Assembly: GCA_018823105.1 (NCBI GenBank)
Contig: JAHJJH010000073.1
Span: 1 to 37,156 of the forward strand
DNA length: 37,156 bases
Direction: 5' to 3'
Source of the DNA: Verrucomicrobiota bacterium
GTDB lineage: Bacteria > Verrucomicrobiota > Kiritimatiellia > CAIQIC01 > JAGNIJ01
The notes below the pieces were generated by a model, which worked only from the letters and a program-made list of their open reading frames with translations, was not told the DNA's origin and ran no database searches. The translations under genes were made by a program, and so were the position numbers. This document shows positions 6,052-7,417 of this stretch, piece after piece. The stretch's first letter is position 1. Every line of letters starts with the position of its first letter.

Positions 6052-6235
6052 TCTCCCTCGAACGGCGAGCTTCATCGCGTTCGGACGCCCCGGGCAGATT
6101 GGCCGGCGAGGACACGAACGGGAAGAAATGATACGCGGTGAGGGTGAGCAACTCGTGCGGTTCGAGTTCAGCGCTCACCCGGCTCCGGAGCGACCTCATT
6201 TCACAGGACTATTGTTCCCAAGCGTCCACACCCCC

Positions 6236-6261
6236 GGATCACACTTAATTAACTGTGATCC
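6236..6261. promoter_or_regulatory. 26-bp palindrome, copy 1 (one mismatched pair)
   Basis: GGATCACACTTAATTAACTGTGATCC; 25/26 identical to copy 3. Confidence 0.8.
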
Positions 6262-6273
6262 AGCCTTTGCTGT

Positions 6274-6337
6274 GCCTTCTCGCCGTGGAAAAGGCGGCAA
6301 GGCCAGGGCGGGTTCGAGCGCAACCCGGTTGACGCCC
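6274..6337 (+). other. Two adjacent potential RNA hairpins
   Basis: GCCTT-ct-CGCC(gtggaaaa)GGCG-gc-AAGGC (6274-6303) and GGGC.GGGTT(cgagcgc)AACCC...GCCC (6306-6337). Confidence 0.45.
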
Positions 6338-6470
6338 ATAGTCCACGATATGTGTTTTTTAGCTGTTATCAAATAAACGCATAAAAATTGCGTGAATACT
6401 AAAAAGGCCCGCTGAAGAATGAGCAGTGGCGCTATAGTGACTTTTTTTAATTAAATGACTTGAATGGGCA

Positions 6471-6494
6471 GATCACGCTTAATTAAGTGTGATC
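6471..6494. promoter_or_regulatory. Palindrome, copy 2 (one mismatched pair), upstream of the wHTH gene
   Basis: GATCACGCTTAATTAAGTGTGATC, ending 31 bp before the ATG at 6526. Confidence 0.8.
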
Positions 6495-6525
6495 CGAGAG
6501 AAACCAGGAAAGGAAGGGGAGTTCC

Positions 6526-7095
6526 ATGGCCTTACATCCAACTCTGTGGCGGACCTGTCGAGTTCTGGCCGGGGAAACGAGGATCCGTCTACTTCGGCTG
6601 GTGGTGAACAATCCCGGGCGGACGGTCTCGGACCTGGCCGCCACCATCGGCATCAGTCTCCCGCGCGCGAGCCAGGAACTGCGCCGGCTTCAGTCCCGGG
6701 GTCTCCTTCAGGCTGTCCGGGTCGGGCGGCAGGTGAGATACCAGCCGATCCCGGACCCCCAGGTGCCCAGCGCGAAGCCCCTGCTCAAGGCCGCAGAAAC
6801 TGTTTTCCGGCGTTTCCCGCGCGAGGCCGAAACACGTCTCGCGGAAATCGCAACGGCCTTTTCTCATCCGCGTCGTATAGCCATTGTTCGGGAACTTCTG
6901 TGGGCGCCCCAAGATACCCTCTCGCTTCTGAACGGAGTCGGCATACCACGAATTTCCCTTAATCGGCATCTGCGGCTACTACGCGCTCGGGGTTTGGTGG
7001 AGCACCGCGGAGGAAAAAACCGCTTAACGGCAAGTCACCACCCGCTGGTACAGTGTCTTGCGCGCATGATCAAGCAATCGTCCGCGGGCGGCTGA
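6526..7095 (+). CDS. Tandem (double) winged-helix ArsR-like DNA-binding protein
   Basis: Two ArsR/wHTH-like halves: LAGETRIRLLRLVVNNPGRTVSDLAATIGISLPRASQELRRLQSRGLLQAVRVGRQVRYQP and FSHPRRIAIVRELLWAPQDTLSLLNGVGIPRISLNRHLRLLRARGLVEHRGGKNRLTAS. Strong purine-rich RBS (aggaaaggaagggga). Confidence 0.85.
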   Translation: MALHPTLWRTCRVLAGETRIRLLRLVVNNPGRTVSDLAATIGISLPRASQELRRLQSRGLLQAVRVGRQVRYQPIPDPQVPSAKPLLKAAETVFRRFPREAETRLAEIATAFSHPRRIAIVRELLWAPQDTLSLLNGVGIPRISLNRHLRLLRARGLVEHRGGKNRLTASHHPLVQCLARMIKQSSAGG

Positions 7096-7110
7096 AGCCG
7101 CCGTTGGGAT

Positions 7111-7136
7111 GGATCACAGTTAATTAACTGTGATCC
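7111..7136. promoter_or_regulatory. 26-bp perfect palindrome, copy 3
   Basis: GGATCACAGTTAATTAACTGTGATCC, 15 bp after the end of the wHTH gene. Confidence 0.85.
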
Positions 7137-7180
7137 GGGGCTTTTTGGCGCAGGGGATGTTTCTTTCCCGCACGGGAAGA

Positions 7181-7228: not shown

Positions 7229-7417
7229 TTACTCGACCTTGATGCACTCGACCGGGCAATTGGCGGCCGCTTCCTTGGCGGCGTCCTCGGAGCCGGCCGG
7301 CACGCTGTCGCCCTTGGTCACGGCAATGTTGTCGTCGCCCATCGCGAAGACGTCCGGGGCGGTCGTCACGCACAGCTCGCAGCCCGTGCACAGGTCTTTA
7401 TCAATCGTCGCTTTCAT
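7229..7417 (-). CDS. Ferredoxin, single [4Fe-4S] type
   Basis: MKATIDKDLCTGCELCVTTAPDVF...ANCPVECIKVE; CxxCxxC...C motif. Confidence 0.93.
   Translation of the reverse strand: MKATIDKDLCTGCELCVTTAPDVFAMGDDNIAVTKGDSVPAGSEDAAKEAAANCPVECIKVE

Follow-up and report, generated by a model that had tools for sequence, protein, structure and literature searches.

The repressors of the ArsR/SmtB group, such as SmtB, CzrA, and AntR, carry one winged helix-turn-helix (wHTH) domain in a chain of about 100 amino acids, and an autoregulatory palindrome adjoins the gene. The protein considered here has the ArsR winged-helix fold in each of two domains, both within 189 amino acids, and its gene likewise adjoins a palindrome that is probably autoregulatory. 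Its family differs from those repressors, however, in that each paralog has a private palindrome, and further sites are dispersed between genes in place of a resistance operon.

The closest described layout is that of REP/REPIN-RAYT systems (PMC3116915), where a single-copy gene is flanked by its own palindrome, with doublets and other extragenic copies elsewhere. In those systems the protein (RAYT) is a Y1/HUH transposase, a domain absent from the tandem-ArsR protein, and copies usually number more than 100 per genome, as against ~5-24 sites per tandem-ArsR paralog. The tandem-ArsR sites are also different in kind: they are symmetric double-strand operators, and the spacers between them are non-homologous but helically phased.

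Two other groups of DNA-binding proteins bear comparison. Like the looping repressors LacI and AraC, the tandem-ArsR family has paired operators (66-100 bp apart) with a period of ~11 bp, as measured for LacR loops in vivo (PMC1762422). The fold differs, the tandem-ArsR pairs occur also in convergent gaps far from promoters, and bridging between tandem-ArsR dimers is conjectural. SlmA, Noc, and MatP, whose fold is unrelated to that of tandem-ArsR, resemble the family in that their specific sites number in the tens, are spread across the chromosome, and are not tied to promoters, but the tandem-ArsR genomes have several paralogs with private sites and show no significant regional clustering.

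The locus and its protein

The window, by which is meant the whole stretch of 37,156 nucleotides that was analyzed, contains two 30-bp repeats (6232-6261 and 7111-7140) that match in inverted orientation at 29/30 positions, as the initial annotation had it. That annotation took each to be a 26-bp palindrome, which is exactly so for 7111-7136, while 6236-6261 has one mismatched pair. The sequence GGATCACASTTAATTAASTGTGATCC, allowing ≤3 mismatches, is matched three times in the window and not once in 100 dinucleotide shuffles, so the repeats are real and chance is excluded. The third match, which the initial annotation did not list, is a palindrome that lies between the outer two. There are thus a distal upstream site, A-1 (GGATCACACTTAATTAACTGTGATCC, 6236-6261), a proximal site, A-2 (AGATCACGCTTAATTAAGTGTGATCC, 6470-6495), 30 bp 5' of the ATG, and A-3 (GGATCACAGTTAATTAACTGTGATCC, 7111-7136), 16 bp 3' of the stop codon. 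Nor are the outer repeats the unique ends of a box, since they are two of ~17 copies in the genome at ≤3 mismatches.

Between the outer copies lies, as annotated, a single gene (6526-7095, plus strand), encoding a tandem wHTH protein, and no transposase. The non-coding spacer that separates A-1 from A-2 (6262-6469; centre-to-centre distance 234 bp) is AT-rich, the GC fraction being 0.36 in 6350-6499 vs 0.55-0.70 in the surroundings, which bears out another of the initial observations. The promoter of the gene is presumed to lie in this spacer; no sigma70 signal above composition is found in it. Upstream on the same strand is zntA, and the palindromes sit behind its 3' end. A-3 lies in the convergent gap ahead of a ferredoxin gene (7229-7417, minus strand), which a member of the same genus retains, with a different neighbor coming next there. 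Scans of the window with Rfam and for tRNAs gave no matches.

The protein of 6526-7095 matches the ArsR-type profiles NF033788 (77.9 bits, cutoff 55) and PF01022 (41.2 bits, cutoff 22), each in two stretches. An AlphaFold2 model of the monomer (pLDDT 90.1, pTM 0.83) gives a confident tandem wHTH, with each domain structurally like SmtB, CzrA, or AntR. No solved structure in the PDB matches the full-length protein (best TM-score by query ~0.4). Neither the profile matches nor the model reveals an HUH/transposase or other catalytic domain, and there is no obvious metal site, since the protein has only two cysteines, residues 11 and 177. The recognition helix of wHTH 1 would comprise residues 45-57 (6658-6696, plus strand) and that of wHTH 2 residues 142-154 (6949-6987, plus strand), as judged from the model and from the covariation described below. 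A codon-usage model trained on its own genome gives the gene a low score, and the gene caller did not pick it up.

A family of paralogs with private palindromes

The window genome (G000; 3.56 Mb in 356 contigs) has two further paralogs, B (contig C274) and C (contig C56), 63% and 53% identical to the window protein, respectively, and each gene is flanked on both sides by a palindrome variant of its own. Across 56 genomes, made up of the window's own and 55 relatives, the family is matched in 26, with up to ten matches in one genome. The tandem-ArsR family is expanded in Kiritimatiellae. Its genes form ortholog groups common to several species, and palindrome specificity is kept within these groups. 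No genome searched has near-identical copies of a family gene, and no member encodes a transposase. An origin in phages or plasmids was considered and rejected: no phage homolog was found, and the plasmid matches are to AntR-like single-domain proteins only.

An own-type palindrome lies upstream in 80 of the 82 family genes for which a palindrome was identified (all from Kiritimatiellae genomes) and downstream within 150 bp in 22 of them; 65/88 upstream palindromes outscore every shuffle. Where a downstream site is present, there is mostly one upstream site; the other genes mostly have an upstream pair (Fisher p=3e-5). Since the upstream pair and the downstream site are alternatives, the tendency is towards two sites per gene, and the box seen in the initial annotation is one of two family layouts.

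Nearly every family member has a private palindrome variant, different for each paralog. The pattern CACACTTNNNNAAGTGTG occurs in 17 of the 56 genomes, 14 of which carry the family. In the other three, G009, G013, and G040 (8, 3, and 4 sites, respectively), there is no homolog above the cut-off. The reversed control pattern gave no match in 55 genomes and one in the remaining genome. A second pattern, of the TTAATTAA type, is limited to genomes carrying the family. Thus a search of related genomes, as had been proposed, finds the sites only in carriers, with few exceptions, and finds tens of them per genome, not the hundreds of sites without link to the gene family that had been named as a refutation. 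The GATC motifs of the window palindromes, once thought to hint at DNA modification, are not a general feature, as most paralog palindromes have none. One genome may hold another related system: G004 abounds in CACACTTGTACAAGTGTG palindromes, some of them paired at a distance of 188 bp (e.g., C11:1614 and 1802, C18:47325 and 47513), and its one detected family gene has a palindrome with a different core (TTTGCAAA).

Protein and palindrome vary together. Background-corrected mutual information between alignment columns and half-site positions, computed in an unbiased sliding window, is highest for residues 43-54 with inner half-site positions 1-4 and for residues 132-143 (windows to 147) with outer positions 8-11. 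The two-domain statistics lie above all 200 permutations, giving p-values that are optimistic because the sequences are related, and the crossed combinations are negative. Within the second domain, residues 143 and 147 covary with outer half-site positions and residue 151 with the middle. When the two domains are aligned, the strongest columns (46, 47, and 50 in one, 143, 147, and 151 in the other) occupy matching structural positions in the two recognition helices, and the AlphaFold2 model confirms the helices picked by covariation. It is therefore well supported, at the level of sequence, that the tandem-ArsR protein would bind its own palindrome, wHTH 1 at the center and wHTH 2 on the outer parts.

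Location and spacing of dispersed sites

The window variant recurs ~14 times in its genome, always intergenic, often between convergent genes, as a rule closer to a stop codon than to a start codon, and beside unrelated genes. Each paralog has ~5-24 dispersed sites, adding up to tens per genome. According to gene calls made by a codon-bias script written for this analysis, none of 66 dispersed sites is entirely contained in a called gene, the coding density being 90%. Convergent gaps are enriched for them (odds ratio 3.2, p=0.012). Of those in co-directional gaps, 16/19 are nearer the stop than the start codon (p=0.004). Several lie in divergent gaps. Many single sites are ≤20 bp from a stop codon, and some have perfect arms longer than the protein site. 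Pfam and NCBIfam confirm the neighbor pairs rimO-alaS, RsmE-GH31, and radical SAM-nadA, which have no common theme. A role as promoter operators, and with it the "global regulator" of the initial annotation, is disfavored by the enrichment in convergent gaps, the bias towards stop codons, and this lack of a theme, whereas the autoregulatory layout, with sites on both sides of the gene or paired in front of it, recurs across the family. A conserved regulon was likewise rejected (neighbor functions are unrelated and few orthologs are shared), as was the supply of start codons to remote neighbors by the palindrome, which was seen only at the genes of the regulators themselves and at a few more.

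Many of the dispersed sites stand alone, no partner lying within 700 bp, so that any looping there would have to be long-range. Clustering of sites along the chromosome of the genus mate (G001) is not significant (p=0.065). Three B-type sites (L029:5666, L036:5425, and L037:86) share the same asymmetric variant, CACACTTTATAATATGTG, and each lies 76-624 bp from a standard B site.

Sites are also frequently paired, 66-100 bp apart. In the genus mate, one site type is 100 bp apart in 4/5 pairs and others are 77-79 or 85-90 bp apart; for several types the spacing is fixed to the base pair. Spacings of 60-130 bp show a period of 11.0 bp at the family's own genes (n=30) and of 11.4 bp in dispersed pairs (n=33), both with p=0.001, the floor of 1000 phase-jittered simulations. 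Wider ranges agree with a period of ~11 bp. The dispersed spacings were gathered by hand from pattern listings, and some of the pairs may share descent. The spacers have a GC fraction of 0.41 vs 0.63 in the flanks, show no homology to one another above shuffles, and have no sigma70 signal (mean z 0.16 in dispersed pairs and 0.06 in own-gene pairs). For lack of this homology, the idea that the pairs are MITE copies was rejected. One 150-bp paired site, in the radical SAM-nadA gap of the genus mate (L148:3965-4132), holds, as judged by eye, a possible ORF of 26 codons with an AAGGAG-like ribosome site.

For loops of LacR in living E. coli, measurements at operator spacings of 57.5-155.5 bp gave a helical repeat of 11.08-11.60 bp per turn (PMC1762422), and the palindrome pairs match these loops in both period and spacing. 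DNA looping by the tandem-ArsR protein is moderately supported. Presumably one dimer would touch another across a small loop, and perhaps the AT-rich spacer DNA helps the loop to form.

Gain and loss of sites between related genomes

Comparison of the window genome with its genus mate shows that sites and some units have been gained or lost between species. The genes rimO and alaS abut in the genus mate (gap ~0 bp), and in the window genome they are separated by 366 bp that hold a palindrome pair. The reverse is true of the radical SAM-nadA gap, 24 bp in the window genome vs 226 bp with a palindrome pair in the genus mate. The unit of paralog B (palindrome-gene-palindrome) fills a convergent gap of ~830 bp that in the genus mate measures ~40 bp. 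Paralog C, on the other hand, sits between the same genes in both genomes; its product is identical at 117/190 residues, and the neighbors are 77-81% identical. No target duplication could be recognized between empty and filled gaps after the divergence. Few remote sites allow comparison across genomes; several lack positional conservation, an unusual trait for essential architecture.

Shared sites turned up in two cases. The window genome has two CACACTTTGCAAAGTGTG palindromes, L011:4004-4034 (contig C206) and L034:9336-9366 (contig C334), a variant that belongs to none of its three detected family genes, and both lie in gaps orthologous to gaps of the genus mate that have the same core. They may be orphans left after loss of a gene, or perhaps the gene is absent from the assembly. 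Where L011:4013 is compared with its counterpart L155:4023 in the orthologous gap, the core is kept and both outer arms differ symmetrically, being of the GCGC type in the window genome and of the TTTC type in the genus mate. It is as if the site had passed from one paralog to another whose palindrome has an identical core.

Discussion

The tandem-ArsR proteins are probably autoregulated, paralog-specific proteins that loop or bridge DNA, each by way of its private palindromes. A homodimer would most likely sit on one palindrome, one half per monomer, and to judge from the covariation, the core on the inside, of TTAA type, would fall to wHTH 1 and the outer arm, of TCAC type, to wHTH 2. A family gene usually has at least two own-type sites, either an upstream pair that would flank the promoter region or one site on each side. 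Since this is so, and the spacing is phased, the gene is probably autoregulated through a DNA loop. The dispersed sites are found in any gene orientation, singly or in pairs whole helix turns apart over AT-rich DNA. There, one may conjecture, it is most likely as an architectural factor that the protein loops or bridges DNA, and not as an operon-specific switch. Looping or bridging is preferred to the switching of one gene set because the same address flanks its own gene, recurs between other genes, and often comes in phased pairs.

The main challenge comes from the resemblance to REP/REPIN elements. The palindromes might be selfish, a miniature mobile DNA, with the tandem-ArsR protein as its cognate binder, an analog of RAYT without a nuclease of its own or dependent on a transposase acting in trans. 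A single-copy gene between palindromes of its own type is what one finds in REPIN-RAYT (PMC3116915), doublets are common, the sites are extragenic and near stop codons, and two palindrome pairs and one gene unit each occur in just one of the two genus members compared. This is a serious rival, if an unlikely one: the protein has no HUH/transposase domain, there are only tens of copies, no target duplication is seen at the gaps compared, the spacers retain no homology even where spacing is fixed to the base pair, and mobility does not predict an 11-bp period. Mobility was also raised in the initial annotation, in the form of a boxed gene as a minimal element with a single protein that acts on the element's ends. 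The presence and absence of the paralog-B unit and of the two palindrome pairs lends this something, but self-mobility is not established, given that no member has a transposase, no target duplication is seen, and ortholog groups are shared between species. With no catalytic domain and no near-identical copies in any genome, and with paralog C keeping its place in both members of the genus, such an element is hardly credible.

Could these be ordinary ArsR-type repressors, one regulon per paralog, with dispersed palindromes serving as promoter operators, also for small RNAs or genes in convergent gaps that escaped annotation? Own-gene sites do lie across or ahead of the start codon, divergent gaps contain several dispersed sites, paired operators are classic in repressors, and specificity is kept within ortholog groups. 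The enrichment of convergent gaps, the bias towards stop codons in co-directional gaps, the unrelated neighbors, and the spacers without sigma70 signal nevertheless make this quite unlikely. It is very improbable that the palindromes are roadblocks or terminators of transcription at gene ends, either through the protein or as hairpins alone. Such a role would suit the many single sites close behind a stop codon and the arms that continue perfectly beyond the protein site, but most sites have no T-tract, and hairpins do not explain paralog-specific covariation or the phased pairs at the family's own promoters.

If the looping proteins preferred here are taken together, a broader reading is possible, though short of probable: a DNA-architecture code of many paralogs in Kiritimatiellae, made of parallel site networks with fast gain and loss, which would be an analog of REP-RAYT built on a repressor fold and without a transposase. 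Up to ten tandem-ArsR proteins per genome would then each loop or bridge their own intergenic sites.

With ~80 natural pairs of protein and site, in which two recognition helices appear to read separable parts of one half-site, the family is a ready data set for a winged-helix recognition code. The spacings provide a readout of helical phasing, from sequence only, in an uncultured lineage, and one that matches the ~11 bp per turn of Lac loops. Should the dispersed sites prove selfish, they would represent a system of the REP kind, able to spread although it encodes no transposase. Should they be architectural, they would represent a new kind of chromosome-organizing system, with several parallel addresses per genome. 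The known kind to which the family would belong is that of ArsR-type repressors with looping operators; a new system of chromosome addresses is a possibility.
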